The notes beneath the pieces are model-generated. The model did no database searches, had not been told where the DNA came from, and saw nothing but the letters and a program-made list of their open reading frames with translations. A stretch of DNA of 64,000 nt from Pisolithus tinctorius (Eukaryota; Basidiomycota; Agaricomycetes; Boletales; Pisolithaceae): the NCBI GenBank assembly GCA_024663395.1, contig JANFAH010000003.1, positions 4,030,001 through 4,094,000 of the forward strand, written 5' to 3'. Of the stretch, positions 23,736 through 56,631 are shown piece by piece (position 1 is the stretch's first letter; each line of letters starts with the position of its first letter). The position numbers and the translations under genes are program-made.

Positions 23736-23758
23736 GTTTCCTCGACCACAAAATATGT

Positions 23759-24940: not shown

Positions 24941-25036
24941 CAAGCTCATTGGCAGGCTACCCTGCAGGAGTACCTGCTCCAGTTTGTCCACATTGCAGGA
25001 ACAAAGAATTCTGCTGCAGACACCCTCTCCCATCGC

Positions 25037-26140: not shown

Positions 26141-26398
26141 CTCGAGCAGTTGGCTGCCAATCAGGATGCCGCGATTATTGCTCACAAGGAAGCACAGGAA
26201 TTAATGAGGCAGTGATCAAAGGGAACCTATATGGAGTTCTCCATGGGAGATAAGGTTTGGCTGGATGCTTCTGACCTAAAAAGGGATGTTCCATTGAAGA
26301 AGCTTGTGCCCTGATGACATGGCCTGTTTGTAATTTCCAAACAGATCAGCCTGGTCACCTACAAGCTACAACTGCCCCCCAGTTGGCAAATACACCCT

Positions 26399-28115: not shown

Positions 28116-28190
28116 TTCTGAAATCTGCTCCTGGGTAGAACAAGGCCTCTACCCACCTTTGGAGGACCTCAGGCCTTGAGGGGGGGGTGA

Positions 28191-28899
28191 TGTTATGCTG
28201 TGCTCACATGTTTCCCTCTTGCAGGCTCTCTACACACTTGTCTGTGCCCACTTTGCCTCTTTAGGCATTCCTGTTTCTCCCACAAGCCACTGCTATGCAG
28301 TTGGACTTGCATTCTGTACAATTTCTCCTTATGCCTTCCTTTTATGGTAGACCCCTGTCTACCCTGTGTTGTACTAAAACTGGACATTGCATCTGTCCCC
28401 CTTCCTTCTGTGATCCGCTGGCAGCCCTGATCCACACAGTCACATGACATGTTCACCCCAGCTACCCTGGTGTGTCTGTTTACCCCTACATATGTCACAT
28501 ACGTGGTTAGTCCCTCTTCCCTCGTTCACCCCATTCACCCTTGCACCCACAGATGTGGTTATATGTGTAGTCCTGCTACGCAGTGGCTCGTTGTGACTCA
28601 TCTTGCCTTAGTAGGGACATGGGTGTACATTTAGATGTTTTTGAATGTTTGTCCCACAGGTACTTTACATATGTATATAAACCCACATGTATTGTACCAG
28701 CTCTCCATTCAAAATCTACTTTGCAACCTGCCTTAGCTCTGCTCGCTGTACCCAAGAGGACTCAACAGTATGACTTCAGCTGGCCAAGACTAGTGCTCCA
28801 TCTGCTAGTGAAGTTGAATAACATGTCACTTCTTGCGCCATCATGTGCCTGTGTTAAACACACTCGATTCATGATGTGATATGAGTCATCGGCATAACA
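28191..28899 (+). repeat. 3' LTR of gypsy element B
   Basis: It is 709 bp, TGTTATGC to GCATAACA. It follows the polypurine tract TTGAGGGGGGGGTGA. It differs from the 5' LTR almost only by transitions. Confidence 0.95.
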
Positions 28900-29668
28900 C
28901 CATCCACCACTATACAAGCCAGGACTGCATGGCTTTCTGGACCCAGATGACTGGTCCAATTGCCAGCAACTACATGTGGGCCAAGTTAGATTTCCACTTG
29001 GCAAATGGAAATTGGCCTACCATCAATGAGGTGGTAGCAGATCTCAACTCTTGCTTCCAGCCCATGAACAATGGGGATTGGGCCCAGAAGAAAATGCAGA
29101 AAGCAAGGCACAGACAGTCTTGAATGGATGCCTTCTTGGCAGAATTCGATAGTTGGAAGCTCATGGCCAGTGCTTCTGACAATTTGGCTATCCTGTGCCT
29201 AGAACAGGCCATAAACCCTGAGGTGCTCCACCTCATGCATCACTTGGGGAAAAGAAAAGACATGTACAAGGAGTACGTGACAGAGCTCCAGTTGGTGGCC
29301 AGAAACTTTGAAAACCACTGATATATGACAGCCTCCTCTTTGAGGGTATGACCTCAGAATCAACCTCATGGCTTCTCTGCCACAGGTATGCAACCCAGGG
29401 CTGGCACTCCCATGGACATAGGTGCTGCTCAATGATAAGGAAAGGGGAAGGGACCCCCTAAGGACAAGTCCCACATCACATGTTTCAGATGTGGCCTGAA
29501 AGGCCATTATCGAAGTGAGTGCCCTAAACAGGCACAACCACAAGGATGCCCTGTCAGGGCTGTAAATACTGACACTGGACCCGACCCCTGCCTGAAAGCA
29601 ATGGAGGGGATGAGCTTCAAACAGATTGTCACTCATATCAACCAGTTAAAAGAATCAGAGCTGCAGTG
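28900..29668 (+). pseudogene. Element A gag, 3' part with zinc knuckle
   Basis: The frame continues the gag of 20,476-20,706 (HHYTSQDCMAFWTQMTGPIA). It is broken by TGA after KARHRQS (29,121) and again at about 29,320. The knuckle CFRCGLKGHYRSEC (CX2CX4HX4C) lies at 29,481-29,522. Confidence 0.85.
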
Positions 29669-30076
29669 AAATCAGGTCCTGCAGACTCTTCCAGTATGTG
29701 GACATTTGTTCCTGTTTCTTCTTCTTCGTTTTCTTCTTTTTGCAGTTTTCATTCTACTTATGGACTTAACAAATGAAAGAAAATACAAAAGTCGAAAATA
29801 TAAAAACCAAAAATAGTGTACCAGTAGTTTCTTTCAATCATTTCTCCTTTCCTGATGTCAAAGAACCACAGGAGTTATTTAATGGTTCAGAATCGGTTTC
29901 TTCTTCTCCTACTTTTACATCATCTGAAGTGGAGTCCTGAAAGGGCTCGGTGCCAGATGTAAAACCATGCCTGCTTAATTCCACTTGCAATAAAAAACAA
30001 AAAAAATGTTTCTTTTGATCTCCCAAATCTCGAGGGTAGTAGTGCAAAGACCTCCATATGGTCTGAAACCCGACGC

Positions 30077-30553
30077 ATGCTGAACCTGAAGGATTCTGTG
30101 GAGGTCCCTTTGGTTTTACAAATGAATGCCAGCTTGGCATTCAAGGTTAGCACATTACTCGATAGTGGTGCTACTGGAGTATTTATACATAAGGACTTTG
30201 TTGAAAGGAACCAGATTCCAAAGATAGCACTGCCAAGGGCAGTTGATGTATTTAATGTTGATGGTTCACCTAATTCCACTGGAAGGATTATGCATCAGGC
30301 TCACCTTCAAGTCTCATACCTTGACCATCACAAGGAACTTCTTGCCAAGATTACTGATCTAGGAGGTAGCACCATGATCTTAGGTCATACCTGGTTACAT
30401 CAGCACAACCCACTGATAGATTGGAAAACCAGTGAGGTCAAAATGGGCAGGTGTCTGGCTAGATGTCAACAGTTAGCCCCTAAAACCTTGTTCGTACACA
30501 AGGTCAAGAAACTCGAAAGAGAAGCCATGGACTCTTACATAACCTGGATTTGA
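30077..30553 (+). pseudogene. Element A protease
   Basis: STLLDSGATGVFIHKDFVER is the aspartic protease active site (DSG). ILGHTWLHQHNPLIDWKTSE is the conserved end of the domain. Flanking frames are interrupted, so it is no longer part of a continuous pol. Confidence 0.85.
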
Positions 30554-30577
30554 AATCTAGGAGCAGACAAACCAAGA

Positions 30578-33500
30578 ATGGATAAAACCCCTCAGGAACT
30601 TGTTCCAAAGGCATATCATGAATATTTATTGGTCTTTTCCAAAAAAGAATCCAAGCACATGCTGCTTAGGAAACCTTGGGACCATGCCATAGAACTAAAG
30701 GAGTCATTTGTACCAAAGAAAGGAAGGTTGATCCCTCTCTCCCCTGACGAGCAGAAAGAAGTCAGTGATGTGAGTCAAAGTGTGGAAAGGTGGTGAAAAC
30801 CAACCAAAACCAACACAAAAGACAAATGTAGAGTGAGTGGTGGTGTGCCTCCGCAGAACCTGGAGTGCAGAAACCTAAATGTGGGGGGAACTTCAAGTAG
30901 AGGTGCTCCTGGCACGAGTCGACAACAAGTTACACAGGAGAAGATGAATGAGTGATGATTGGATGGGGGATGCTGAACAGAGTGAAGGTGTTCAGCCGAA
31001 AGGTACTTCAAGTAATGGACTTCAAGGAAACGTGCTCCTTGCACAAGTCGATGACAAGTTATGCAGGAGTGGGAGGATGACTAAGCAAGACTTGCTGACT
31101 AAGTGTGGATGGAGCTTCAGATAATGAATGGTGGTAGATAGACTCTTCCAAATGAGCCTCAACTACCAAGTATACGAATGATGACAGGTAGACCCCTTCG
31201 TGGAGCCTTGACTGTCGACGACGAGATAGGCACTGGGCTGACTGCTGGACTGCTTCTGAATTGCTTCTTGATTCTGATTGATTGTGGGTAGCTAAGTACA
31301 TGGGGGTTTATATACTGAGGGGGGAGCACAGCTTGTGACAAACAAGGCACAAACACTTGGTAAGTAATGAGTAAGGACTGAGTAATCATGATGAGTAAGC
31401 GAGAAATGAAAAGTAAGCAAGCAAAGAAGATTGGTAAGTATTGGCAGTGAATGAGTCAAGGATAGTCAAAATATCACAAAATGAGTCAAATAGAATCAGA
31501 AACTGAGTAAGCACACTGATATCACATTAGGGGGTGGCGATGCAAGTTAGATCTCAGCAGAGACATCTCTAGATCCAAAGACAGCATGACAGATGGACGG
31601 TGTTTCCAGATAGGGAAGTATTAACTCCAGAATTGAAGGGCATGAGTCAGGTGTCAAAGGGGGCTAGGGCATTGGGGGTCTGTGGGGCAATGAGAGCATA
31701 CGCAATCATGTCTCCCACCCTTCCATCCTCTCAGCGAAGTTAACAAAAACTTCATGAATGGGGCTCTGATGGAGGAGGAGGAGAAGGGGGGACGTCTTCT
31801 GCTGGATCTTGCAGTAAGAAGGCAAGATGCATGTCATACTTGTCATGAATGCGATCAGGGAGGCTGGAGGACAGTAGATTATACTGCAGCTGTCGCAATG
31901 CAGGAAGAATGATGGACAAGACTGGAATAAAGACGGTGCAGGGAGCAGGGAGGAACAATCCATATGCTTCATCAACTGGGGAGACTGAAATGACCACATA
32001 AGACCTTTCTAACCGAGTGACAGACCTGAGGTGACCAAAGAACGTCCTTCTGGAAGTCATACTGACAAGGAGAACACGCTGACCAAGCTGCATGGGATGA
32101 GATGGGGCTGACAATGATGGGATGAACCAGGGGGCTTCAGGATGGAAGCTGGTGGGAATGCCTGGCAGATATATGTAGCCACTGTCTCTGGCAAATGAGA
32201 CAAGCGAGATGATTGATGAAGAGGTGGCCATGATTGATGGACTTAGCGAAATGAGCGTCTGATGGATGGAGTGCTGTAGAAATGCACAGGGTGCAAGGAT
32301 CCTCTCCAAATTTGGAAGGAAGAATCATGGGGCTGAGCACTTTAAGCGAGCATGGGAATGGAGTCAATATCTTTGGAAATGGTGGAGATACGACAAAAAC
32401 CGGAATGCCGTACACGGGTGCTAAAAACCTTTAATGCGCGCTTAACTCGCTTCCTCTTTTCTCTTTAGCACTGACGACTCGTTCTTGTGCGAAGGATGAC
32501 TGTTAACGTCCAACAGTCTTTCTATGCATGAGGCCTTTAGTCTTCATCTGCATGCCTGGGCATTGTGCACAACTCGTCAACGAGTTAGGCAGAGTCAGCT
32601 GTAACCATGTCCACAACACCTTTGGTGTGTGACAGTGACTTCATGGATGGTCAGCTCAAGAAGGGTTATATTCAGCCTAGTAAATCACTGCAAACCTCTC
32701 TGGTGTTCTTCATCCCTAAAAAGGATGGAAAGAAGCATATGGTCCAGGACTATCAATATTTAAATGAACATACTGTCAAGAATTCATATCCTCTCCCTTT
32801 AATATCTCAGCTTGTGGACAAGTTGAAAGGTTGCAAACTCTTGACAAAGATGGATCTTCGCTGGGGTTACAACAACATTAGGATCAAAGAAGGAGATGAA
32901 TGGAAAGCTGCTTTCATATGCCATCATGGTGCTTTCAAACTGCTAGTCATGTTCTTTGGGCTTTGTAACTCGCCCACCACATTCCAGAACATGATGAATG
33001 ATATCTTTGGCGATATGGAAGATGTGCTCATTGTCTACATTGATGACCTAATGATATTTATGAAAATGGACAATCAGGAGGAACATGACAGGATCGTGCT
33101 GGAGGTGCTTAGAAGGCTGAAAGTAAATGACCTATTTGTCAAACCACAGAAGTGTATCTTCAGACAACAAGAGGTGGACTTTTTAGGAATGATAGTTGGT
33201 GTTAACGGAGTATGTATGGACCCTGCCAAAATCTCTGCTGTGCAAGATTGGCCCATACCTACCAATGTTTGCAGAGTTTGTGGCTTCCTCAGCCTAGTGA
33301 ATTTCTACTGACGATTCATTAAGGACTTCATGCAGATCATGAAACCCCTAAATAACCTCACAAAGAAGGACCTTCCATTTGTTTGGGATGACAAATGTCA
33401 AATGGCATTTGATACACTAAAAGAAGCCTTTACAACCACCCCTATCCTTATGTTTCCCGATCAGGATCGGAGGTTTTGGTTAGAAACAGATGCTTCAGAC

Positions 33501-33842
33501 TATGCCACTGGAGTGGTGCTTTCAGTAGAATGTGATGATGGTCTCTGGAGACCTGTCACCTACTCCAGTCACTCTCTATCTGGGGCTGAACTTAATTATA
33601 TGGTTCATGACAAAGAAATGCTGGCCATTATCTGCGCACTCGAACAGTGGCATCATTACCTCGAGGCTACCCTGTACCAGTTTGAAATTTGGACAGATCA
33701 TCACAACCTCAAGTGGTTTATGACTGCACAGAAGCTTCAACCATGCCAGGTGCATTGGGTGCAGTACTTTAGTCGCTTTAACTGTATTATAGTTCACAAA
33801 CCCAGAGTCACAATGGGAAGGCTGGATGCCCTGTCAAGATGA
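30578..33842 (+). pseudogene. Element A reverse transcriptase and RNase H, split by insert C
   Basis: The frame reads up to SPDEQKEVS (30,766), is interrupted by element C, and resumes at 32,639 with DFMDGQLKKGYIQPSKSL. RT motifs are FFIPKKDGKKHMVQDYQYLN, FGLCNSPTTFQNMMNDIF and the catalytic YIDD (near 33,040). TGA at 33,309 replaces an arginine codon in NFY-RFIKDF. RNase H follows with LETDASDYATGVVLS, intact in its aspartate. Confidence 0.9.
30769..32633. mobile_element. Insert C: unclassified 1.87 kb element in the RT of element A
   Basis: AGTGA flanks it on both sides (30,764-30,768 and 32,634-32,638). Removing it restores the RT frame EVSDFMDG. Termini read TGTGAGTC and GTGTGTGAC(A). 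Depending on where the repeat is cut, the duplication is 4-6 bp. No long terminal direct repeat and only weak inverted similarity at the ends was seen. Inside are two near-copies of about 50 bp (30,888-30,940 and 31,022-31,072, both with CAAGTCGA/CGAGTCGA and ACAAGTTA) and a minus-strand frame of 185 codons (31,752-32,309) without known domain. The class is uncertain. It could be a non-autonomous DNA element or a degenerate short retroelement. Confidence 0.75.
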
Positions 33843-33938
33843 GAGGACTTTGTAGAAGGAAAAGAAAGGGCAAAGTCTGAAGAGTCCCTATTTATAAACC
33901 CGAGTCAGGTTTGCTCAGTAAAACTAGAAAATCCCTTC

Positions 33939-35274
33939 ATGGAAGATTTGCAGATTGAGTCCACTAGAGCCAAAGGAGTCCCCACTGGATGTGAGCTCCA
34001 AGGTGGTCTTCATTATGATGGAGAAAAGGTCTGGGTGCCTAGTGCACTTAGAAGGAAGTTACTTAATGCTCTCCATGACTCTCCCCTAGCAGGACATCAT
34101 GGAATAAAAGGAACTCAGGAGTTGATCACATGCTGGTTCACATGGTCCACCTTGAAACCCGATGTAGAAGAGTATGTGAAGCATTGCCAAACATGCCAAG
34201 CCAGCAAGTCTGGAAATAGGCTGCCTGCAGGAGAACTCAAACCTTTACCTGTCCCTGATGGGCCTTGGAGTCAAGGGATCTTCTGGAAAGTTCCACATGT
34301 TGGTTGTCATTGACAGGTTCTCTAAGGAAGCAGAGTTCATTCCCTGCACTGTGGAAGAAACAGCTGCTAGCACAGCTTGACTTTACCTGACACATGTTTG
34401 GAAACACCATGGACTTCTGGACTCTATCATATCAGACAGAGGCCCACAGTTTGCCTCTTCCTTCATGAAGGAACTATTTAAAATGCTGGGAGTACAGCAG
34501 AAGCTTTCTATGGCTTTCCACCCACAAACAGATGGACAAACAGAGTGGTTGAACTGCAAGATTCAACAGTATTTATGGATGTATGCCAACCAGCAGCAGG
34601 CTTGCTGGGAGGAATGGCTGCCTTTGGCTCAGTTCGCATACAACAACTCTGCCTCATCTTCTACTGGCAAGTGCCCCTTCGAAGTTACTCAATCCTATAG
34701 ACCTAGGATGGGCATCAAACCAATGATTTCAAAGGTAGAAGCAGCAGAGGAAGTTGCCAAATCCTGGTTCCAGGTGTTCCAGGATGTGAAAGCAAACCTC
34801 ACCAAAGCACATTCTTGGCAGAAGCAACAAGCAGATAGATGCCACTTGTCTGCTCCTTCCTACTCCATTGGATCTCAGGTCTGGCTAGCTATGGACCACC
34901 TGTCCTTGAAAGAATGGCAGAGCTGTAAACTTTCTGAAAAATGGATTGGACCATATGAAGTTCTAGAAGTACTTCTGAACACTCTTAAATTAAAGTTGCC
35001 ATGCAACATGAGGATTCACCCAGTTGTGAATGTCTCATGGGTCAAACCCTATCTTGGTGCTCTTGATGGGCAGCCTGTTAACAGGCCTGGACCACAGAGG
35101 GTTACTGACAAAGGAGACATTGAATATGAGGTTGAATATGTTGTTGACTCCTGTTTGAAACATGGAGCTCTTCAATTCCTTGTGCATTGGAGGGGATACC
35201 CTGAAGAAGATCATACTTGGGAGCCAGCCTCCACCTTGAAGAATTCACAGTCAGTGATCAAGGACTTTTATTGA
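33939..35274 (+). pseudogene. Element A integrase and chromodomain
   Basis: HHCC region: HDSPLAGHHGIKGTQELITC with CQTCQASKSG. A frameshift lies at about 34,270, and TGA at about 34,378 interrupts ASTA-LYLTHVWKHHG. The core acidic residues are visible at ISDRGPQF and in HPQTDGQTEWLNCKIQQYLW. The C-terminal GIEYEVEYVVD-like chromodomain ends FLVHWRGYPEEDHTWEPAST. All core domains are present but not in one frame. Confidence 0.88.
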
Positions 35275-35413
35275 TCCCACCCCAGAGCCCCCTGTAAATT
35301 ATCTCTCCTCTCATTGGAAAGCTTTGACAGCTTGTTCACACCTGTGCTGGAACTGTCTACTACTGTTTGTCCTATTTGGTCTCACCTGGAAGTTGAGCCT
35401 TAGGAGGGGATAG

Positions 35414-35812
35414 TGTAACGACTGGTAGACTTCTCACTTCTGCATTTCCTACTTACCTATATATATCCACCCTCTGGTTAGGGTTATGCTTTAGGGATGC
35501 TTAGTCATCTCGGACTTTTCCTTTTACTTACTCTTTCACGCTTACATGATACTTAGTAAGGCTGCACCTCGTTACTAATGCATGTTCGTGTTTGACCAAT
35601 AGTGTAGTTCTCTCTTTTGTTTACTTCTTTCTAGAACATTCTCTTGTGGCAGTACATACAAACAGTAAGGCAGTATATAAGTCCCATTGTTTGTTGTAGT
35701 CAGTTTCTCTAATCTAGTTTGTTTTGAGCCTAGTCCTCATTCAATGGGTTCCACTCCCCTTCTCTCTGGTTTGAAGTGATAGCTGAGAAGACATTCATCT
35801 TTGGTTGCTTCA
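35414..35812 (+). repeat. 3' LTR of gypsy element A
   Basis: It is 399 bp, TGTAACGACTGG to GGTTGCTTCA. The target duplication GATCA follows at 35,813-35,817. It is preceded by the purine tract GGAGGGGATAG. Confidence 0.96.
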
Positions 35813-37813: not shown

Positions 37814-37818
37814 TGTTG

Positions 37819-38532
37819 TGTCATAACCGTGCATTCACACTAAGCCCTTGCTAACTCCGCGCTTCACTCCGCCGGTCATTCACTCACTCCGCACCAACTC
37901 CGCCCAACTTCTGTTGGTTGCGAACCATCTCTGCTCCGACTACTGTCGAACTTGTGTCGCTCTCCTACCGGACCGAGCGGTCCGTCCCCTGAGGGGTCAT
38001 GTGACTACCTTCGCAGTCAGGTACTCCGCAGCACGCTCACCGCATGGTCCAGTGCCTGGACTGCTTCCTTTTCTGGATGTTCTGTGTTACCCGTTCATAT
38101 GTCCTCCGTCTACCCTTCATTCGTCGTCCAGGAAGTTTTACTTGAAAATTTATGAGTCTCCGTATGTCAGTTCCGATTCCGGTTACTGTACCTCCGTAGC
38201 AGTATAAAAGTATGTACTGTACTCCGCTGTTCTTCAGTACGAATATCAACTTAGTTCCTACTCCCTCTGATTCTGTCTTCTGCCTGTCGGAGTTATCTCC
38301 GACTCTCCGTCTGTACTCTCCCTCTGAAATACGAGGGCTGAGATCGTGCAAGGGGGTAGTGCACGAGCTAAACCTGACGCCCTCACTCCACTCTGCCTCT
38401 GTCTCGGTGGACTTCGTTCCTGCCAACACTCCACTAGTCGGAGTTCTGTTCCTGTGTGTCGGACTTGCTTCCGGAGCACTCTCTAGACTCTATATAGCGT
38501 CGGGGTTGGTCGGAGTAGGCCCGAACTTGACA
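37819..38532 (+). repeat. 5' LTR of gypsy element D
   Basis: It is 714 bp, TGTCATAACC to AACTTGACA, and flanked by TGTTG (37,814-37,818). TATAAAAG is at 38,203 and the inferred transcript start at 38,236. It holds about 12 CTCCG and 4 CGGAG words by eye. Confidence 0.97.
38203..38246 (+). promoter_or_regulatory. Element D promoter: TATA box and self-primer start
   Basis: TATAAAAG at 38,203-38,210 lies 33 bp before AGTACGAATAT (38,236-38,246). That word is the exact complement of ATATTCGTACT at 38,535-38,545, 2 nt after the LTR. The first 11 nt of the transcript would therefore prime minus-strand synthesis, as known for Tf1 and sushi. Confidence 0.75.
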
Positions 38533-38534
38533 GT

Positions 38535-38545
38535 ATATTCGTACT
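38535..38545 (+). other. Element D self-complementary primer binding site
   Basis: ATATTCGTACT pairs over 11 nt with 38,236-38,246 in the LTR and starts 2 nt after the LTR end. No tRNA complement was recognised at this place. Confidence 0.8.
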
Positions 38546-38593
38546 CGCACTTGTACGATCTCCTTTTCTGTCTTCCAAAAAACTTACACTGTT

Positions 38594-39877
38594 ATGAGAA
38601 CTCGAGCTCAATCCCAGAGAGAGGTCGCTGAGAACCTCGCTGTTGCGCTAGCTAATCCGTGTCGACTCCCTTCCGTCGTCGAACAGTTCCAATCATTCTC
38701 CGCTCGACACCGCTCTCGCGCTGAAGGTGAAAGCGCTTCGCAAGCTGGTCGCTCTGACCTCCACCCAACAACTTTCCATACTCCATCTCCTCGAAACCGA
38801 GATGATGGACCTGATCCCGACCCCGACTATCCTGACGGTGATCCCGACGGCGGGGGCAGCGGTGACGGGGATAACCCCGAAGACCCGGCTGAGCCGCCAG
38901 AGGATCCCCTCGTAGCTCTTGCTAGAGCTGTCCATGCGCTTGTGCAGTCTAGTTCGCGCACTGGGGACTCTGCTCCGAAAACCAAAGTCCGTGAGCCCGA
39001 CACCTTCGATGGCTCCGACCCTAAGAAACTCCGCGAGTTCCTTGTTCAATGTGAGCTAAACTTCCAAGACCGCCCTCGCGCATTCCGCTCCGACAGAGCA
39101 AAGGTTACCTTTGCTCAGTCTTATCTCAAGGGTATGGCTCTGGCTTGGTTCGAGCTAGATCTACTAAATCCCGACAACTATGACTGCCCGCTCTGGATGG
39201 ACGACTATCACGAGTTCTTACAAGAGCTCACAACTAACTTCGGTCCACATGATGCCATAGCGGATGCCGTCCAACAACTCGAGAACCTAACCATGAAAGA
39301 TGGGTCTCGAATTACTAAATACGTCGTGGAGTTCAATCGCTGGGCTTCGCAAGTCAAGGACTACGGTGTCGGTGCACTCCGCCACCGCTTCTATAGCGGA
39401 CTTCCAGACCGCATCAAGGACGAGATCGCTCGCGTCAGTAAGCCTTCTACCCTCGCACAACTCCGCGAACTCGCCCAAACCATCGATGCGCGCTACTGGG
39501 AGCGCAAAGCAGAGATCTCGCACACCACCAAGTCCGCCTCCGACAAGTCACAGTCTTCCAACTCCGACAACAAAACTAAATCGTCGTCCTCCGCCTCCGC
39601 TCAAAAGTCCGACGCCAAGGGCAAGGGAAAACAGAAAGATCCGCCCAAGTCCGACGCATCCAAGTCTGATATTGCCCATCTTCTGGGCAAGGATGGCAAG
39701 CTCACCTCCACTGAACGTCAGCGCAGGATGAAGAACAACCTCTGCCTCTTCTGTGGCGAGGCTGGCCATTCCGCCAAGGACTGTCCCAAGTCCACCTCTC
39801 GCGCAGCCAAAGCCCGTGCAGTTACGGCTGAAACTCCGCCTACTCCGCTTGCGGAAAAGGCAGAGTCAAAAAATTAG
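38594..39877 (+). CDS. Element D gag
   Basis: It has 427 residues from ATG 38,594 ([20 protein letters not shown]) to TAG 39,875. An acidic, proline-rich stretch lies near residues 65-110. It is followed by the capsid domain ([59 protein letters not shown]). A Ser/Lys-rich linker and the knuckle [14 protein letters not shown] (CX2CX4HX4C, about residues 395-408) follow. The frame is intact. It packages element RNA into particles. The last codons contain the slippery site used to enter pol. Confidence 0.95.
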
Positions 39878-39912
39878 TCCGCTCCTCCAGGGAGCTCGCA
39901 CAGCCTGGAGGA
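39868..39912 (+). promoter_or_regulatory. Programmed -1 ribosomal frameshift signal between gag and pol
   Basis: The heptamer A-AAA-AAT (39,868-39,874) stands in gag frame directly before the gag stop TAG. After an 8-nt spacer a perfect 9-bp stem follows: TCCTCCAGG (39,883-39,891) with CCTGGAGGA (39,904-39,912), 12-nt loop. The -1 frame is open from here into the protease and RT. Confidence 0.8.
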
Positions 39913-42900
39913 AGCGTTGAACCCAACTGTGCGCAACCGGACATCCAACTCAACGCTTCCACTCTTTCTAGTCCCAATTCTTTACTTCCGTCTGTAACTC
40001 TTCTGGATTATTCTGTTGATACTGTCTCTGCGTTGATCGATTCTGGTTCTTCTCATTGCTTTGTAGATCCATCTGTAATTAAAAAATATGCCATTCCCAT
40101 TTCCTCCGTTTCTCTGCCAATTCCGCTCCGCTTGTTTGATGGTAGTACCAATGCTGTCATTTCCCAAGAAGTAGATCTTTCCCTCCGCTTTCCTTCCGGC
40201 GATGTCAACTCCGTTTCATTTTATGTTACTCCGTTGGATTCTTCTTGTTCGCTGGTATTAGGACACAACTGGCTCACCCGCTTCAATCCGTCGATTGACT
40301 GGGTACTGGGCAGTATATCATTCAAACCATCGCTACAGGGAATGCCGACACCCCAGGCACCTTCGTCATCTTCCGCTGCGACCTCTGCTCCGGATCCGAC
40401 ACCCTCCGCTCCGTTTGCAGCTCCGACTGCATCTCCGACCGACTTGCCGTGCTCTGCTCCGCTCGTCTCACTCATCAATGCTGCCGCGTATGTCAGAGCC
40501 TGTGCTCTCCCTGGCTCTAGACAGTTCCGCTTACAGCTCTCCGCTGATGATGTGAAGCTTTGTGCGTCCTCCGCTTCCTCTCCGCCCCCTGACCTCTCTC
40601 CGGTTCCTCCTGAGTATCACGAGTTTGCCAACGTCTTTAGTAAAGACAAGGCCACAGAACTTCCGCCACACCGCTCGTTCGATCTCAAGATCGACCTCGA
40701 GGAAGGAGCAACTCCGCCCATCGGTACAATCTACTCTCTTTCTCCGCCAGAGCTTGAAGCTCTCCGCACCTTCATTGACGAGCACCTTGGCTACGGTTTC
40801 ATCAAACAATCCACCTCCGCTCACGGTGCCCCTGTCCTCTTCGTGAAAAAGAAGGACGGTTCACTCCACCTCTGTGTAGATTATCAAGGACTCAACAAAA
40901 TCACGAAAAAAGACCGCTATCCGCTGCCGCTCATTTCCGACCTACTCGACTCTCCAAGCCGCACTAAAGTCTATACCAAGATTGACCTCCGCCATGCCTA
41001 TCATCTGGTCTGCATCACAGATGGAGATGAATGGAAAACAGCATTCCACACTCGTTATGGTTCTTACGAGTGGCGGGTAATGCCATTCGGTCTGACTAAC
41101 GCGCCTGCGGCCTTCCAGCGATTCGTCAATAGCATCTTTGCAGACATGCTTGATGTCTGTGTCGTGGTATACCTCGATGACATCTTAATTTATTCGCAGG
41201 ACATGGAGTCGCACCACGAACATGTAAAAGAGGTACTCCGCCGCCTTCGAAAGCACGGTCTTTATGCCAAGCCAGAGAAGTGCGAGTTTCACTCCGACTC
41301 CGTCGAGTACCTCGGTTATGTTCTTTCTCCCTCCGGTCTCACCATGTCCGCTGAGAAGGTTCAGGCGGTCCGCAACTGGCCTGAGCTGCAGAAGGTGTGA
41401 GACATCCAGTCTTTCCTTGGTTTCGCAAATTTCTATAGACAATTCATTAATAACTACTCCGACATTGTTGTTCCACTCACTCGCCTCACGTGAAAGGGTG
41501 CTCCTTGGAACTTTTCCGAGGAGTGCCACTCCACTTTCCTCCGCCTGAAGGATGCCTTCAGCTCCGCTCCCATTCTCACTCATTGGGTCCCTGACACTCC
41601 GCTTACAGTTGAAACCGATGCCTCCGACTATGCCATTGCTGGCATTTTGTCGATCACCTGCTCTGATGGTGAACTCCGCCCAGTCACTTTCTACTCTCGC
41701 ACCATGACCGCGCCAGAACTCAACTATGATACCCACGACAAGGAGCTGTTGGCTATCTTCGAGGCCTTCCGCCATTGGCAGCATTACCTTGAGGGCTCCG
41801 CCTTACCTGTCGATGTGGTGACGGACCACAAAAACCTTGAGTATTTTTCCACCTCTAAGGTTCTCACCTGTCGACAGGCCCGCTGGTCGGAGTACCTTTC
41901 ACAGTTCAATCTTTCCATCCACTTCCGACCTGGCCGCCTAGGAGCCAAACCCGACGCACTTACGCGACGTTGGGATGTCTACCCAAAAGGGGGGGATAGG
42001 GACTACGCACAGGTAAATCCTCACAATCTCTGCCCTATGTTTACACAGGAGCAACTCGTGTCGTCCCTCCATACCACCACCCTCATGGCACCTGTGCTCC
42101 GCGCCACCATGGTCTTCGATGTTGAGTGCTTGCACTCCGACATCATCTCCGCCCTACCCTCCAATCCTGTCTCCGCCAGCCATCTCCCAACTCCGACTAA
42201 GCCTTGGTGGTCCTTGGACTCCGACGGTCTACTCCGCCTTGACGGTCGTATCTTTGTCCCTGACATTGATGACCTCCGCCTCCGAGTGCTTCGGTTCAAG
42301 CATGATCATCCTCTAGCAGGCCATTTCAGGCAAAACTGCACCTTAGAACTCGTCCGCAGGGACTATGTGTGGCCCAACCTCCGCTCCGACGTAAAGGAAT
42401 ACGTCAGGTCTTGCGCTGCCTGTGGACGGAGCAAAACTCCACGTCACCGCCCTTATGGTCTACTGAAGCAACTCCCCATCCCAGAGAGACCTTGGAACTC
42501 AATCTCCATGGACTTCATCGAACACCTCCCCAACTCCGATGGCTACTCCGCCATACTTGTGGTAGTGGACCGCCTCTCAAAGCAAGCGGTGTTCATCCCC
42601 ACCCACGACTCCATCACCTCCACCGAACTCGCTAAGCTCTTCCTTACCCATGTCTTCTCCAAGCACGGAGTACCAGCTAATGTTACCTCCGACAGAGGTC
42701 CTGAGTTCGTCTCACACTTCTTCCGCTCCCTAGGAAAAGCCCTTGATATGCGTCTTCACTTCACTTCGGGTTACCACCCAGAAGGTGATGGCCAGACCGA
42801 GCGAACGAACCAGACCCTCGAACAGTACCTTCGTGTCTACTGTAACTACCAACAAGACAACTGGGCTGAGCTGTTACCTCTAGCGGAGTTCGCTTTCAAC

Positions 42901-43593
42901 AACGCACCAAGTGCAACTACTGGAGTCTCTCCCTTCTTCACTAACAAGGGATACCATCCAAACCTGTCTGTGGTCCCTGACCAAGACTTCACTTCTCCAA
43001 GGGCTCATGACTATGTCGTCGAGCTCTCCGCCCTTCATGACTTCCTCCGCTCCGAAATGTCCGCCGCTCAACAGCGCTACCAGGGTCCAGCAGATGCTAA
43101 ATGCATACCTCCGCCTGAGTTCAAGGTCGGAGAACAGGCCTACATCAAAGCCAAGTACTTCCGCTCAACTCGTCCTTCGGAAAAACTCTCCGAAAAGTAC
43201 TTAGGTCCGTTCACCATCTTGGCCAGGCCAGGTACGCATTCCGTCACCCTTAAGCTCCCTGACTCTATGCGCTCGGTACATCCAGTCTTCCATGTCTCAC
43301 AACTGGAAGCTGCAGCGGCTAACCCTTTCCCAAACCGACAACAACCTCCGCCTCCGCCAGTGGATGTCGATGGTGACCTTGAGTACGAGGTATCAGAGAT
43401 ACTCGACTCTAAGGTGGACCGCCATCGCCGCCATTGTCAACTCTTGTACCTAGTCCGCTGGGCTGGCTACGAGAACACCGATGAAGAAACCTCTTGGTTG
43501 CTTGCAACTGAGCTAGATCACGCTTCCGACATAGTGTCCGCTTTCCATGAACGCTATCCACACAAACCTGGCCCGTACCAACCTCCGCCATAA
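39871..43593 (+). pseudogene. Element D pol: protease, RT, RNase H, integrase, chromodomain
   Basis: One frame runs from the frameshift site to TAA 43,591, with only two TGA stops (41,398, before [15 protein letters not shown], and 41,491, within LTRLT-KGAPW). Both sit where CGA for arginine would be expected. Protease: [57 protein letters not shown], catalytic YLDD (near 41,170). RNase H: VETDASDYAIAGILS. Integrase: HDHPLAGH with CAACGRSK, then SMDFIEHLP, TSDRGPEF and GQTERTNQTLEQYL. The chromodomain starts EYEVSEILDSKVDRHRR, followed by YLVRWAGYENTDEETSWL. All catalytic residues are present. The copy is therefore recently inactivated, or depends on readthrough. Confidence 0.95.
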
Positions 43594-43754
43594 ACTCCGC
43601 CCACATAACCTTCCTCCGCTGGCCAACTCCGCCCCTCACCGAACTACCTTAAGTACTTTAGCATTTTCTCTGCTTGTCTATTTCACTTCTCAGAGTCGCG
43701 AACAAAAATCACAAGTCTATTTCGTAGTAGTACAAAAATATACAAACTAAAGAC

Positions 43755-43775
43755 AAAAAAAAAAAAAAAAAAAAA
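43755..43775 (+). repeat. A21 homopolymer after pol
   Basis: Twenty-one consecutive A follow the 3' untranslated stretch of pol and end about 10 bp before the stop codon of the antisense gene. Confidence 0.9.
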
Positions 43776-43785
43776 CAAAACTACT

Positions 43786-45030
43786 CTACTCTTCCATCAC
43801 TTGTTCTCCGCCACCCTCCTGTTCTTCACCACCTTCCTGCTCTCCTTCGACTTCTTCCTTGTTATCCCCCTCCGCACCTTCATCTGCTTCCTCGTTCTTG
43901 TCCTCCGCCGCCTCCGACTGAGGCCTCTTCCAACCTCCGCCTGTGCGCTCGAGCTCAGCCATCCTGGCCTCTCGCGCATCCTCCCTTCTCCTCATCTCCA
44001 CCCACTCCGCCCATGCGTGGTACATCGCCCACTCGTCGGCAGTCCGCTCTGCAGCCACCGCCATCCGCTCCGCTGCCTCTGCCATCCTCTCGAAGGCCAG
44101 CACAGCAGTCTCGTGCGCTTCGGCCTGCCTCTCCATGGCTTGCAGCTGTCGCTCGCGCTCCCACTCCGCCCACCGCGTGTGGACTCCCGCACCCGAGGGA
44201 CCCTCAAGTGGGGTCGCAGGCTCGTCCTCTTCTCCGCCTACCTCCCGCTCGTCATCCGCCTCCTCTGTCTCCGTCGCCCTCGCCTTCCCCTTCCCTCGCG
44301 GCTTCTTCTTCTTCTCCCCTCGGGAGCTCCCTGTCCCTGCCCTCTTCCGCGAAGGTCCTGCCGCCGCCTCTTCCCGCGTCCAGCTGCAGGTTTTCTTCTT
44401 GTTGTGGCAGGGCACACAGGCCCTGGTCTTACCTTGCCCTGGCTCGCACTGACCCGCTGTCAGACTCGCTATGCAGCGAGTGCAAGGGGGCCGCCTGGTC
44501 GCGGTGACCACCACAGAGGTCCCAGGGACCCTCTGGGCGGTGTTGACGTTGTAGACCGCGCCGCTTAACCTGAAATAAAAATACAAGTCAGCTCCGCCTG
44601 ACTGTTAGAATTCTGTCACTCACCTTTGCGCAGCCTCGTCCTGCCTGGCCTGGGCCCTCTCCTGAGAGGCCCTCTGCCTCTGCTTCTCTGCCTCTTCCGC
44701 CGCTCTCTGTCTTTGCCTTTCGGCCTCTTCATCCGCCGCCTTCTTCTGCTGCGCTTCTTCCTCCTCTCTCTGCCTCCGCTCCGCCTCCTGCCGCGCCTCT
44801 TCCACCTTTCGTCGCTTGGCCTCCTCTCGTTTGGCCTTGCGCTCCGCCTCGCGTTCTCGCTCCTTCATCTCCGCCTCTTCTTGCCGACATGCCTTCTCCG
44901 CTGTCTTCTCGCGCTCAGTGTCCGTCGAGTCGTCTGTAAGGACGACTAGGTCGTCGTCGGCGACCTGGGAGTAGTCACGAGAGTGACCAGGGGTGGGCTG
45001 GGGGGTTTTGTTCTGACATTGAGAGGACAT
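43786..45030 (-). CDS. Antisense cysteine-cluster, coiled-coil protein inside element D
   Basis: Exon 1 runs from ATG 45,030 (MSSQCQNKTPQPTPGHSRDY) to 44,624 and exon 2 from 44,569 to TAG 43,786. The intron (44,570-44,623, 54 bp) has GTGAGT and TTTCAG ends, and the join CAA-AGG keeps frame. The product has 396 residues. An acidic start (DDDLVVLTDDSTDTE) leads into a long Glu/Arg/Ala coiled coil. A six-cysteine cluster reads CTRC-8-C-9-C-VPC-6-C. Next come a basic Lys/Arg-rich patch, a second Ala/Glu coiled coil (ERMAEAAERMAVAAERTADE) and an acidic tail. The spacing CX2CX8CX9CX2CX6C resembles fungal Zn2Cys6 DNA-binding domains, but the basic residues sit in the last loop. A role as an element-encoded nucleic-acid-binding regulator is inference. 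It has no stops, although pol on the other strand does. Confidence 0.75.
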
Positions 45031-45227
45031 GATGGTGGGGGGGATGGGATACGAGGGATTGGTACCCTAACACGTGTTTTTAAGCGGAACTTCGAACTCC
45101 GACGGAGCTCTGCCGCGGCTAAACCCATTATCCTCGAGGCATCAAAATAATTTCAAATGATCAACTCGTGTTGATCTCATTCTGTACATGTGGCCTTCAG
45201 GGGTTCAGGCCCTAGGGGGGGGGGCAC

Positions 45228-45941
45228 TGTCATAACCGTGTGTTCACACTAAGCCCTTGCTAACTCCGCGCTTCACTCTGCCGGTCATTCACTCACTCCA
45301 CACCAACTCCGCCCAACTTCTGTTGGTTGCGAACCATCTCCGCTCCGACTACTGTCGAACTTGTGTCGCTCTCCTACCGGACCGAGCGGTCCGTCCCCTG
45401 AGGGGTCATGTGACTACCTTCGCAGTCAGGTACTCCGCAGCGCGCTCACCGCATGGTCCAGCGCCTGGACTGCTTCCTTTTCTGGATGTTCTGTGTTACC
45501 TGTTCGTATGTCCTCCGTCTACCCTTCATTCGTCGTCCAGGAAGTTTTACTTGAAAATTTATGAGTCTCCATATGTCAGTTCCGATTCCAGTTGCTGTAC
45601 CTCCGTAGCAGTATAAAAGTATGTACTGTACTCCGCTGTTCTTCAGTACGAATATCAACTTAGTTCCTACTCCCTCTGATTCCGTCTTCTGCCTGTCGGA
45701 GTTATCTCCGACTCTCCGTCTGTACTCTCCCTCTGAAATACGAGGGCTGAGATTGTGCAAGGGGGTAGCACACGAGCTAAACCCGACGCCCTCACTCTGC
45801 TCCGCCTCTGTCTCGGCGGACTTCGTTCCTGCCAACACTCCGCTAGTCGGAGTTCTGTTCCTGTGTGTCAGACTTGCTTCCGGACCACTCTCTAGACCCT
45901 ATATAGCGTCGGGGTTGGTCGGAGTAGGCCCGAACTTGACA
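45228..45941 (+). repeat. 3' LTR of gypsy element D
   Basis: It is 714 bp, TGTCATAACC to AACTTGACA, followed by the target duplication TGTTG (45,942-45,946). It is preceded by a G-rich tract (45,215-45,224). Confidence 0.97.
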
Positions 45942-45946
45942 TGTTG

Positions 45947-50550: not shown

Positions 50551-50730
50551 ACACTTCTACAAACACAATTGCCCATCGCGCACCCCGACTGTCACGTGCT
50601 GACGCCCTCTTGGCAAAACTCCCTTACAAATCATCACGTGGCTCACCGATCGATAGAGCAGCCAAGGTATGTGTTCGACGTCCAGACACTATTCAACTGC
50701 TGCTGAAGCGATCGTGATCCAAACTTGGCC

Positions 50731-52248
50731 ATGACTGAACTTGCTGAGGCACACGCAGTGCTGGTCACTTTGGAGAAACGAAAACAGGGACTCATCGCGG
50801 AGCTCAATGATGTCCACGCTGCCATTCGCTCGCAGAGGAACAAACTCGAGGAACTTATCAGACGGTTGCCTGTTTCCCCTATCGATCGCCTTCCCAACGA
50901 GATGATTTTGCGAATTTTCGAGTTAATCCTTGGAACTGCACGTGCGGAGGACAAGAATTGTTGCGTGCGTTGGAAAGGACAGCTGGCAGAGGTGTCTCGG
51001 CGGTGGAGAAATGTGATCTTGCGTTCGCCATGCCTGTGGACTACCATCAGAGTGTCCTCGTCGTGGAACACAGCGCTCATCGAGGCCCACATCATGCGGA
51101 GCTCTAAATCACCGCTGGACATCGAAATCTCTCCTTGGAGAAATTCCGTGCTTAAAGACCGACCGCTTCTACAACGGCTCGAACTCGTTGTTCCTTGTGC
51201 AGAACGCTGGCGCAGCCTCACTATATCCTCGGATGTATCATCCTCAACGTTCCGGATCTTGCGAAGATTGGATCATTTGTCCCTGCCTTCGTTAACGTCC
51301 GTTTGGATCGAGCGTTTCCCCTGCTGCGAACCAGGAAAGTTTGATCTCCCATTCCTCTGGCCCCAACGCGCTCCCCTTATAGAAAAAATATTCATTTCTG
51401 GTGACATTGGAATGCTAAAGGGCCGAGAGATACCTTCTAGCGTGAAGACGCTGGCCGTGGAATCGACCTCTCTGCGTTGGAGAATCACCTCTGCGCTACT
51501 TCTTGAGTTCGTGCCCTGTCAGAGACTGACCTCTCTGTGTCTTGGTAATTTCACCAATTCCGAGGAATTGCCTCCCAATAGTATCCAACTCCCTCTGCTT
51601 GAAAAGTTTGTTTCCAGAGGTGGAGTCTCAGCCGCACTGATATGCGCCATCGTGGCGCCTAGACTTAAACACTTTGAATGTCACGAGCTCAGCGCATATC
51701 CGTCTCTACATGACCGTTTCGTGGCCGTTAGTGGCAAATTTAGCAACGTTGACCATCTGGAGTTGCATGCCGGGTCTCAACGGTCACAACGATATAAACC
51801 CCCATCACAGTCCCTACGTTTGGCATTTCCTGGTGTGCGTCACTTGGTACTCTCGAAAGTGGACGCAATTGCAATTCTCCCCTCTGCAGAGGACCCAGGC
51901 ACGGTTTTCCACTGGCAACACCTTGAAAGCCTAACTAGCATCGGATATCCGAAGGAGGAGGAGGAGGAGGAGGAAGAGAAGGAGGAGAAGGAGGAGAAGG
52001 AGGAGGAGAAGGAGGCCTTTATCAATAATTTAGCCAACTGCCTTAGGCGGCGACAAGAAGCGGGTCTATCAAAGCTCCGATTAACCTTTCCAGTGCCCTT
52101 TTCAGTCGAAAGATTTTTATTCGTGTATGAGCAGCTCAATGATTTGTGTATTTTGGAATGCGCGTATAACACCCACGATATCACTCTCTCCGGGGTGACC
52201 AGTAGCAAGCCGTGGTTGGTGCGTACCTCATCCATGTATACTTGTTAA
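50731..52248 (+). CDS. F-box protein, copy 2
   Basis: Single exon, 505 residues from ATG 50,731 (MTELAEAHAVLVTLEKRKQG). N-terminal coiled coil, then F-box (VSPIDRLPNEMILRIFELIL, CCVRWKGQLAEVSRRWRNVI). It is nearly identical to copy 1 along the whole length. The acidic stretch near residue 410 has grown to about 20 Glu/Lys (GAG/GAA repeats at 51,953-52,015). It is predicted to be an SCF substrate receptor. The upstream leader ACTATTCAACTGCTGCTGAA is shared by all three copies. No disabling change was seen. Confidence 0.9.
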   Translation: MTELAEAHAVLVTLEKRKQGLIAELNDVHAAIRSQRNKLEELIRRLPVSPIDRLPNEMILRIFELILGTARAEDKNCCVRWKGQLAEVSRRWRNVILRSPCLWTTIRVSSSWNTALIEAHIMRSSKSPLDIEISPWRNSVLKDRPLLQRLELVVPCAERWRSLTISSDVSSSTFRILRRLDHLSLPSLTSVWIERFPCCEPGKFDLPFLWPQRAPLIEKIFISGDIGMLKGREIPSSVKTLAVESTSLRWRITSALLLEFVPCQRLTSLCLGNFTNSEELPPNSIQLPLLEKFVSRGGVSAALICAIVAPRLKHFECHELSAYPSLHDRFVAVSGKFSNVDHLELHAGSQRSQRYKPPSQSLRLAFPGVRHLVLSKVDAIAILPSAEDPGTVFHWQHLESLTSIGYPKEEEEEEEEKEEKEEKEEEKEAFINNLANCLRRRQEAGLSKLRLTFPVPFSVERFLFVYEQLNDLCILECAYNTHDITLSGVTSSKPWLVRTSSMYTC

Positions 52249-52548
52249 GCGTGCCGATGCTGAACATTCCCTCCCCAATAGGATGTGTCATTCAGCCAAC
52301 CTTACATTTTGGATGCCCTCCGGGACGCCGTGATGGCGGGATGCATTCGAACAAACGGAAGGGGTTGATTGTGGTGGCACCGCTATATGTTGCTCGTGTC
52401 TCGTAGAACAGTTGCGCCTTGTACAGCTTTTTGTTGAACACGGATCTAATCTCGATAATTACATGAGCGGCATGAGAGCATTACAATTCTACAAACACAA
52501 TTGAAGAGACAACGCTCGGTCCACACTCTGCAATTCTCAAGAATGGGA
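52249..52548. other. 3' flank of F-box copy 2, duplicated after copy 3
   Basis: It aligns with 56,336-56,631, including GGACGCCGTGATGGCGGGA and ACATGAG-GGCATGAGA. It probably contains the 3' untranslated region. No gene. Confidence 0.5.
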
Positions 52549-52751
52549 TCATCCACCTCTTACATGTTGTAAATGAACTTCCCGTATATGGCGCGCAAGG
52601 TTATGTCGTCGGATGTTGTTTCCGTAACCTTGCCATCCACATTGTAACACTGCATCCCGAGACAAGAGACAATTCCGTGCGTGGACATGAGGTGTCCAGG
52701 AGCAGTGTTGCATGTGATGGACACTGAACACGGACTGTCGTCTGAAACCAT
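52549..52751 (-). pseudogene. Broken copy of the small C2H2 zinc-finger gene
   Basis: The minus strand starts MVSDDSPCSVSITCNTAPGH, like the intact paralog at 56,632-56,844. A frameshift follows after HLMSTHGI. The finger (CGWQGYGNNIRRHNLARHIR) is in another frame, and its second zinc-binding Cys is Tyr. It is therefore inactive. Confidence 0.65.
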
Positions 52752-52776
52752 TTAGAGACAGTGAGTCGCTGGACAA

Positions 52777-54856
52777 TTAGTGTACACCCTGCTGTACCGC
52801 CAACCGAACCAACGGAAATAACGCATGAAACAAAAATAACACACTACTACTGAGGAGACGTCATTCTTCACCGTTCGAACGTGAGCGAAGCAATTTCAAC
52901 CACAGGGAGTGGTCATAAGGGAGAAATCCCGAGGCGAGAGTGTATGAAACGTGGAACGGAACGTGTGTGGAGAACGACGAGGCAAGTAAATAGCCTGCGC
53001 GCGAGACGACAGACCAAGAAGAGCGAGAGAATGAACAACCGCAGAAGCACTCAATACCTATATATTGGTCAAGCACAGGAACTACAGCAGCAACCAAAGG
53101 CTCTACCCCGAGTTATGACTGTCATTGGAATACAGCTTGCCAAATGGACCATTAGCCGCAGCCTCACTTGCCATCCGGTGTTGAAACACCCATATCTCCA
53201 CCAAGGGAAATTGGCCAAGTTTTCGTCCCACTAGGTAGAGTCCGAGCTCGACTGTGCAGGGGTGTATATTCATCCCGTCTCGTGCTGCTCTAAAGAGTTT
53301 GTAGCAACGCCCGTGAATCCTACGCCATGCAAAGTGAAGGTAAGCCAGACACTTAAACCGTCGTCAGTGAGTCATTACTATGGATTAAAGCGTGAGATCG
53401 CTCAACGACCGTATAAATACGATCTCACGCCGGAACTTGATGAAGTGGCAGCAGTTCCGCTCTGGACAAATTCGCTACCTGTTTGGTGAGATTGTAACGT
53501 ACCAACCGAGCCGGCATCTTTGTGTCACTGAAGAGGGTACCCTTCCGGCAACAAAGGGAGGTCCTAAGGTTTGTGAAGTGAGATTATAGAAAAACTGTTA
53601 GCAAATGGTGAGACCGAGTGTCTAGGGGGCAGGCTGAAGTGGAAGGTCGCCAAGGGAACCTACAGTGCAGTGTTGGTTGTCAGTGCGCAGCTTTGGGTCG
53701 TTTGAAGCCGACGGCGGGAATTGAAAGCAAGTCCTTTCGAACCATTTCTCGGATGTCGGGGAACGCACCTTGTGGCTAGACAAAAGTCAACCCAAGTTGA
53801 GAAGAATGCTAAGACGCAGCAAGAGAACTCTCCAAAATCCCAGCATTAGACAATATTAGCGAGGAGCATCAAAGTAAATCATTAAATTTCGGATGAAGAA
53901 TCCATTCCATTCCTAGTGCAAGTGTCTCTAGCTCGGCTGAGAGTGGATTCGTATCACGTTTACGCTGAAGCGACTACCAGTAAATCCTGATGATAAAACC
54001 CTCCAAGATGATTGTTTGACCTGCATAATTTGGAGGCCAGTGTGCAGAGAGCAGCGCGAAGGCATCGATTTCGTGACTTGCATAAGCCGTCTCGTTGATC
54101 CAGGTGACAACGCTAGTAGCGTGCGCGGCCTCGGTGAGAATGTCAGCACAGCAAATCGAATGCAGAGAACAAACGAGCACGGTTTTAATAGTCACTAGTG
54201 GTGTTACGTGCGGGCAAATAGCAGTCCTTCCTGCCCTTCATCGGACTTTGTCCCTAAAAGTGTTAGTGGGTGCGGCCTGTTACAAGTTCAAGTGTCCAAG
54301 AGCACAGAGTCACCAAACCACCAGCCTACTTGAAGGTCCTGCTACGTAGAGGGCAGTGGTTTCCCTTTCACCGCCATTGCGCATTGTGCATTGTGCAGCA
54401 GTGAACTTCTTTTAAGACCGCATTTGAGGCAACCAGATTTTAGGTTGTCGAGGGCTGCAGGGGCCACTGACAGTACTTCCTATAAAGGGTGTCGCAGTAT
54501 ACACTTAGAATAAACGCTTTGTGCTAGAAGTAATGACTCACGCTCGAAACGTACCAAGAGTTTCATTTCGAAGCAGTCGGAAGGATGTCCTCATTCCTGT
54601 TGCGTTCGCAAATGGTGTCCAGTACAGTGAGCTCCTACAAGTTACAGTGGTGAGAGCGCGCTCGAAGTGCCAACCCCGCTTCTTCTGCTTACAGATTACC
54701 ATACAGAGTCGAGAGGACAAGTATCACTGCCAGGGCTGGCAACACTGCCATTTACATTAACATCCACTTCATTCATCAATACAGCAGCTGAGGTACGTGT
54801 CCAATGCCTAGACACTATTCAACTGCTGCTGAAGCGATCGCGATCCAAGCTTGACC
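52777..54856. other. Duplicated flanks of F-box copies 2 and 3
   Basis: 52,777-53,230 aligns with 56,900-57,290 (shared ATACCTATATATTGGTCAAG). 53,230-54,856 aligns with 15,611-16,956. No gene was recognised. A minus-strand frame at 52,861-53,097 (VVPVLDQYIGIECFCGCSFS) is conserved in the other copy, but this may only reflect the shared DNA. Confidence 0.45.
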
Positions 54857-56335: not shown

Positions 56336-56631
56336 ACATTCCCTCCCCAATAGGACGTGCCATTAAACCGACCTTACATTTTGGGTGCCCTCCGGGACGC
56401 CGTGATGGCGGGACGCATTCAAACAAATGGAAGGGGTTGATTGTGGTAGCACCGCTATATGTCGCTCGTGTCTCACCCTCGCTGCAACGAGCTCCTTCAT
56501 AGAACAGTTGTGCCTTGTGGAGCTTAAGTCCAAAACAGACCCGACCTCGACAATTACATGAGTGACATGAGAACAATACAATTCTACAAACACCACCGAA
56601 GAGACAACGCTCGGTCCACACTCTGCAATTC

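Follow-up and report, generated by a model that had tools for sequence, protein, structure and literature searches.

Described systems and the element D

In Arabidopsis, the VANC/VANDAL anti-silencing system (Hosaka 2017, PMC5735166; Sasaki 2023, PMC10398659) combines a fast-diverging protein encoded by a transposable element (TE) with a short motif that has accumulated in the same element; the motifs differ between related families, and the transposition protein is far more conserved than the reader. These traits have a likeness in Ty3/gypsy retrotransposons of Pisolithus tinctorius, with differing motifs in three of four families. The elements are represented here by element D, located at positions 37819-45941 of a 64,000-nucleotide stretch of contig JANFAH010000003.1 (the window; assembly GCA_024663395.1, positions 4,030,001 to 4,094,000 of the forward strand). 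An initial annotation of the window had suggested that D, saturated with the pentamer CTCCG, may work in a VANC-like manner. This idea is supported in part: sister families with an antisense gene do have different words, but the words also lie in coding sequence and do not form tandem repeats. There are further differences. VANDALs are Mutator-like DNA transposons, whereas D is a long terminal repeat (LTR) retrotransposon; VANC has DUF1985/DUF287, for which the antisense proteins of the gypsy elements gave no match when scanned with Pfam; VANC motifs reside in non-coding tandem repeats, whereas the gypsy words are dispersed over coding and non-coding parts; and binding and demethylation have been shown for VANC and are putative for the gypsy proteins. 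D is not a member of the VANC/VANDAL system but shares its logic, and what is new here is an unrelated protein and a new location of the code, the coding sequence.

In plant Retand-type gypsy elements, too, the region from the end of pol to the 3' LTR holds a gene in antisense, the product of which is predicted to bind DNA and has no known function (PMC11963269). They differ by a TRP28 domain in place of a six-cysteine cluster (TRP28, PF04195, was not matched in a Pfam scan of the gypsy antisense proteins of P. tinctorius), about half of them carry tandem arrays in the antisense region, and elements saturated with a word are not described in the available parts of that paper. A third parallel is provided by fungal DNA transposons, which in the view of PMC12730594 carry a TET/JBP domain to escape silencing. 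The likeness lies in fungal TEs that likely bring their own means against methylation-based silencing; the difference is that an enzyme on DNA transposons is concerned and that no private address word is named in the abstract. A literature search, with most subscription papers outside its reach, brought up neither words of this kind nor an antisense zinc-cluster gene for fungal gypsy elements in any title or abstract, and the Laccaria TE paper PMC3411680 contains none of the terms antisense, opposite, reverse orientation, additional open reading frame (ORF), zinc and methylation.

Words in D and its sister families

At least three related gypsy families in the genome are each filled with a different short word, coding parts included. 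The searched genome of this ectomycorrhizal mushroom comprises 92.5 Mb on 221 contigs. Further gypsy families were obtained via a search for the gypsy reverse transcriptase (RT) motif (344 + 303 places in the genome), and families and words were scored at 51 of 56 loci, omitting L001 and L009, which are the window itself, and the unmatched L052-L054. L053 and L054, included as other gypsy lineages, match none of the four elements D, L039, L041 and L042 and contain no comparable word. The words were judged against three nulls, namely a first-order Markov model, a shuffle of synonymous codons (300 shuffles) and a stricter shuffle in which codons changed places only if they were synonymous and the base after them was identical. 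As a measure of saturation, positions in gag and pol whose protein sequence permits a word were compared with those carrying it.

On its plus strand D contains 110 CTCCG and 13 CGGAG, for which the Markov model predicts 20.4 and 5.9; outside D, the window (55.9 kb) has 33 of the former and 40 of the latter. Much of this had been noticed by eye in the initial annotation and was recovered on counting: the left LTR holds exactly 12 CTCCG and 4 CGGAG (expectation 1.7 and 0.4), the 60-bp stretches of pol quoted for a local density of 3-5 contain 5 and 3 CTCCG, the word is present in all three frames, in both LTRs, in the antisense gene and in its intron, and the bias stops at the 5-bp target-site duplication TGTTG that flanks D on both sides. 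The assertion that codon use cannot explain the words also holds. Together, gag and pol carry 67 CTCCG, compared with 24.0 after codon shuffling (maximum of 300 shuffles 40; z 10.8) and 37.2 under the stricter null (maximum 49; z 7.5), and the three nulls rule out codon use as well as base and dinucleotide composition as the cause. The saturation of D and the family specificity of the words are near certain.

The additional claim that the words keep to one strand survives for the coding parts. CTCCG occupies 67 of the 129 permitted positions in gag and pol and CGGAG 5 of 69, and in the antisense gene the orientation is fixed relative to the element (16 versus 0). In the LTR, however, both orientations are enriched about equally (CTCCG 12 versus 1.4-1.7; CGGAG 4 versus 0.4). 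The one-strand bias is partly due to composition (D is C-rich, with C at 0.33 and G at 0.21), and bias beyond composition lies in the coding parts of D. CTCCG is randomly spaced in D with a median gap of 37 bp, and is repeated in tandem no more than two to three times in a row, which rules out tandem duplication as the source. A regularly spaced array is ruled out as well: the words are distributed in a Poisson-like manner in D, L039 and L041, although a count of CCGG alone looked even in L041. None of the fixed-spacing CGG/CCG dyads was strong except CGG-N3-CGG in L039 (22 versus 6.8), which is taken to restate the word of that element.

The words of the sister families are CGG[ACT]CT in L039 and a GACCGGTC-like (ACCGGT-like) palindrome in L041; like CGGAG/CTCCG of D, each contains CGG on one strand, and each of the three is spread across LTRs, gag, pol and antisense gene. 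L039, with LTRs that are 98.7% identical, contains 50 CGGCCT where 3.6 are expected and 43 CGG[ACT]CT in gag-pol where the codon null gives 10.2, with CTCCG at null level (19 versus 19.2). For the whole of L041 the counts are 66 ACCGG and 62 CCGGT versus about 10 each, and for its gag-pol 36 and 42 versus 15.5 each under the codon null. Permitted positions are realised in D, L039 and L041, respectively, at 52, 17 and 12% for CTCCG, at 2, 30 and 46% for ACCGG, at 4, 37 and 45% for CCGGT and at 3, 41 and 18% for CGGCCT; the families' own words occupy 35-52%. The LTRs are affected too, with 12 CTCCG in 714 bp for D (6.9-fold) and 12 CGG[ACT]CT in 529 bp for L039 (13.9-fold). The initial annotation had named counts against nulls and against other gypsy families as a check on its idea, and the outcome is that each sister has a saturating word of its own and that CTCCG is not theirs. 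On the element strand, the antisense gene of L039 (L039:6584-7677) has 20 CGGCCT but lacks AGGCCG, an excess that perhaps stems in part from repeated codons of a low-complexity protein. As controls, eight Copia loci (each about 3.7 kb long) contain 1-2 CTCCG apiece, and in their longest ORFs the z of all 5-mers stays within 4.6; the corresponding limit is 4.1 for three long ORFs of the window that lie outside the transposon block and may belong to one repeated gene family.

Among 51 D words in pol that can be aligned to the sisters, 4 are identical in L039 and 3 in L041. Amino acid identity is lower at the motif codons of D than elsewhere, both to L039 (0.60 versus 0.73) and to L041 (0.59 versus 0.72). 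The effect is weaker for the words of L041 relative to D (0.66 at words, 0.71 elsewhere), and those of L039 have no cost in Pol against D (0.73 and 0.72). The simplest account of these alignments would be that the words entered once the families had separated and that in D this went partly against the conservation of the protein.

Copies of the families, the antisense gene and the architecture of D

Loci of the D family were chosen by similarity to D and include near-identical duplicates (L007/L008, L015/L016 and L028/L029). CTCCG scores highest in 38 of 39 of them, the exception being the dead copy L050 (5 CpG/kb); CGGCCT does so in four of the five loci of the L039 family (the exception, L043, is dead and has 4 CpG/kb) and the L041 word in all three loci of its family. 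In L040, a D-family locus with 4 CpG/kb, the z of CTCCG is just 1.9. Decayed copies keep decayed forms of their own word (27 versus 4.1 in L043, 107 versus 35 in L049 with 25 CpG/kb and 88 versus 45 in L050). As copies within a family are not independent, the number of independent families is three. Past the end of the dead D-like copy in L040, self-matches reveal a tandem array (L040:9188-9900), and the words GATTCT, TTCTCC and CTCCAT abound in the locus taken together, perhaps because of this array.

In 37 copies of the D family, CTC preceding CG varies less than CTC elsewhere (1.07 versus 3.43% of base comparisons), and 18 of 90 sites are variable as opposed to 75 of 168 (p 7.5e-5 overall). 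The check proposed in the initial annotation, whether related copies retain the motif better than neighbouring CpG sites, has a split result: non-CpG motif bases do vary less than matched CTC, but motif CpGs are kept no better than others. The pattern of decay fits words that are selected in the active lineage and decay neutrally after insertion, and gives no sign of local protection from methylation. The saturation, however caused, suggests that synonymous sites are strongly selected. Methylation-based silencing is likely in this genome because of three DNA methylase matches, CpG-stripped old copies and TET/JBP matches (150 Tet_JBP domains among the matches listed, 149 above the cut-off). Many of the listed Tet_JBP matches share the same open frame of 201 or 239 amino acids, as expected of a transposon-borne gene.

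The antisense gene of D sits between pol and the 3' LTR on the opposite strand. Exon 1 (44624-45030, minus strand) encodes a charged N-terminus and is separated by a 54-nt GT-AG intron (44570-44623), containing one CTCCG on the plus strand, from exon 2 (43786-44569), which encodes a six-cysteine cluster, CTRCIASLTAGQCEPGQGKTRACVPCHNKKKTC, a long helix and an acidic C-terminus. The splice junction equals that in annotated P. tinctorius proteins, e.g. P0001. The best matches of the antisense proteins are found in P. tinctorius with few in P. orientalis, and the exon 1 region forms a long helix in the structure model of an L039-type relative. With a ratio of nonsynonymous to synonymous polymorphism (pN/pS) of 0.17 for exon 2 across 29 D copies, the gene looks to be under selection. 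Pol of L039 and L041 is 83-92% identical, the antisense protein just 37-41%; the second half of Pol and the chromodomain are nearly alike, and the CCHC knuckles of Gag differ at one of 14 residues. Saturation and family specificity of the words are accompanied by a selected antisense gene that diverges between the families.

Antisense proteins of the L039, L041 and L042 families fit C-x2-C-x6-C-spacer-C-x2-C-x6-C with spacers of 12, 12 and 14 residues. UniProt names many relatives Zn(2)-C6 fungal-type, and in a second structural comparison all five rows over the cysteine region were Zn2Cys6 domains, each a weak match; a PDB sequence search with the antisense alignment gave nothing useful. The comparison points to a weak structural resemblance of the six-cysteine cluster to Zn2Cys6 DNA-binding domains, which together with the cluster itself and the UniProt names suits the Zn2Cys6 half-site that the initial annotation saw in CGGAG. 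Fungal Zn2Cys6 transcription factors such as GAL4, Leu3, Pho7 and AlcR bind CGG-containing sites. The gypsy proteins resemble them in the cluster and in that the structural comparison gave no other domains over the cysteine region; they differ in staying below the Pfam Zn_clus cut-off, in a spacer of 9-14 residues, in the C-x2-C-x8-C first knuckle of D and in being encoded antisense by a retrotransposon. Five open genes whose products are 50-52% identical to the L042 antisense protein lie at C2:2924-5257, C55:373499-375832 and C45:860-1438, as two pairs spaced about 1.75 kb and one single gene, those on C2 and C45 near contig starts. Locus L052, which covers C2:4679-8557, matches none of the four gypsy elements, and these genes are perhaps domesticated copies.

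By all features tested, D is a Ty3/gypsy chromovirus. Its target-site duplications (37814-37818 and 45942-45946) enclose a 5' LTR (37819-38532) and a 3' LTR (45228-45941; 12 CTCCG and 3 CGGAG) of 714 bp each that are 96.5% identical (25 differences/714). The plus-strand gag gene (38594-39877; 13 CTCCG) encodes Ty3_capsid/Retrotrans_gag and a CCHC knuckle. Two in-frame TGA codons interrupt pol: the first open piece (39832-41400; 26 CTCCG), with protease (PR) and RT, stops at one of them, and the second (41494-43593; 28 CTCCG), with RNase H (RH), integrase (IN), SH3_Tf2-1 and chromodomain, follows the other. The Pfam matches are ordered PR-RT-RH-IN with a C-terminal Chromo domain (3.5e-7). Elsewhere in the window, an LTR pair at 19311-19709 and 35414-35812 is 95.5% identical and about as young as D; it has 5 CpG/kb compared with 63-65 in D, and its source was probably already CpG-poor. 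Three related stretches (16858-18683, 50632-53183 and 54769-57281; 83-95% identical, 54-68 CpG/kb) may be members of a tandem gene family into which the transposon block came to lie.

Possible readers of the words

We tentatively propose, and put the chance somewhat short of even, that the antisense protein binds the word of its own family along the element and keeps the element active, most likely by anti-silencing. Each gypsy family would encode a helical, charged, Zn2Cys6-like protein antisense between pol and the 3' LTR, and this protein would recognise a CGG-containing word private to the family (CGGAG in D, CGG[ACT]CT in L039, ACCGGT-like in L041). Selection on copies recognised by their own protein would have spread the word over the full length of the element, so that it occupies the LTRs and a third to half of the protein-permitted positions. 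Dense binding would most likely keep the chromatin of the element open or demethylated in a self-only manner, like VANC on VANDAL. Three points of this are our inference: the antisense protein as reader, DNA as its target and anti-silencing as the outcome. With still more reserve, we consider a private, evolvable address code, in which the antisense Zn2Cys6-like protein reads the CGG word of its family, the family marks and protects itself and not its sisters, and the code shifts by co-evolution of cluster and word, in D at a cost to Pol.

A number of observations weigh against self-recognition. In 38 D copies (the above 37 and L050), CpG retention at motif and other sites is 0.738 and 0.768 in the LTR, 0.811 and 0.805 in gag-pol and 0.685 and 0.731 in the antisense gene, and LTR motif CpGs are lost faster than other CCG sites (0.840 and 0.845 retained). 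With CpGs lost as quickly inside the motif as elsewhere, local protection from decay is not evident. The conservation of CTC is weak by region (p 0.049 in the LTR, 0.085 in gag-pol and 0.24 in the antisense gene). Young Copia copies without words are also CpG-rich (40-72/kb in coding parts), for which reason CpG richness, suspected as an anti-silencing sign from the CpG-poor LTR pair 19311-35812, was dropped. The first knuckle of D reads C-x2-C-x8-C; Pfam Zn_clus is matched weakly and below the cut-off in 8 of 27 members of the L039, L041 and L042 types (best E 0.022) and is not listed for the antisense protein of D, including 23 D-type members. L039 and L041, the closer pair among the three families, have words partly in common (z 5.5 for CGG[ACT]CT in L041; z 4.0 for ACCGG and 5.5 for CCGGT in L039). 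The main exception is a fourth family, L042/L055/L056 with the mixed L047, which carries an antisense gene and only a weak word: ACCGG/CCGGT reach z 5.3-6.6 by Markov and at best 2.7 by the codon null in L042, and a clear word, beyond weak CGGTG/CCGGT, was not found for this family. Because just three families are strong, the pairing of word and protein has an n of 3. Finally, the words of D and L039 are strand-biased in coding parts, which is unexpected for an unoriented DNA site.

Four other explanations have to be considered. The antisense protein might read the words in element DNA for another step, be it activation of the LTR promoter, coating or import of cDNA or guidance of integration. 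Zn2Cys6 proteins are mostly transcription factors, and the density of words in the LTRs of D (6.9-fold) and L039 (13.9-fold) would agree with such a role; it is nevertheless unlikely, given that a promoter needs sites in the LTR and not at half of the permitted places in gag and pol, and that L039 and L041, for all their different words, are almost the same in the second half of Pol and in the chromodomain.

Orientation is the main puzzle: the words of D and L039 are oriented with the element in coding parts, which would suit a reading at the RNA level. The words would then act in sense RNA, as a binding code for Gag or the antisense protein in packaging, export or avoidance of RNAi. CTCCG at 67 of 129 and CGGAG at 5 of 69 permitted positions, an orientation that stays fixed to the element even within the antisense gene (16 versus 0) and words spanning the presumed genomic RNA, if the transcript runs as in other LTR elements, all speak for it. 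The nearly equal enrichment of both orientations in the D LTR and the palindromic word of L041 (66 ACCGG, 62 CCGGT) favour DNA instead, and Gag knuckles that differ at a single residue out of 14 between L039 and L041 hardly account for different words, so that we regard RNA as a rather improbable target.

A host factor is a very unlikely reader. Each family would have adopted a different host Zn2Cys6-type site as activator or shield, with the antisense gene doing something else, and fungi do have many Zn2Cys6 factors, whose sites usually contain CGG; but L039 and L041 share a nucleus and a near-identical Pol, their words differ and it is their own antisense protein that differs most, and the eight Copia loci are without such a word. 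It is hardly credible that the saturation arose incidentally, through base composition, the use of codons, mutational bias or duplication on a local scale, even with C-rich elements and a possible share of repeated codons in the 20 CGGCCT of the L039 antisense gene, as codon shuffles including those that keep the next base never reach the observed counts, sister elements that share the skew are full of different words, tandem arrays are missing and neither the Copia loci nor the three window ORFs have words.

If self-recognition by the antisense protein is true, sequence-specific self-recognition of transposons would have a further origin, this one outside plants, in an LTR retrotransposon and with an unrelated class of protein. 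The target of a DNA-binding protein would then be readable from the coding sequence of the very element that encodes it, and the gypsy families, with four clusters and three or four words, would make up a natural training set for the recognition code of Zn2Cys6 proteins. They would also offer a clean system for learning how TEs evade silencing without derepressing all other TEs.

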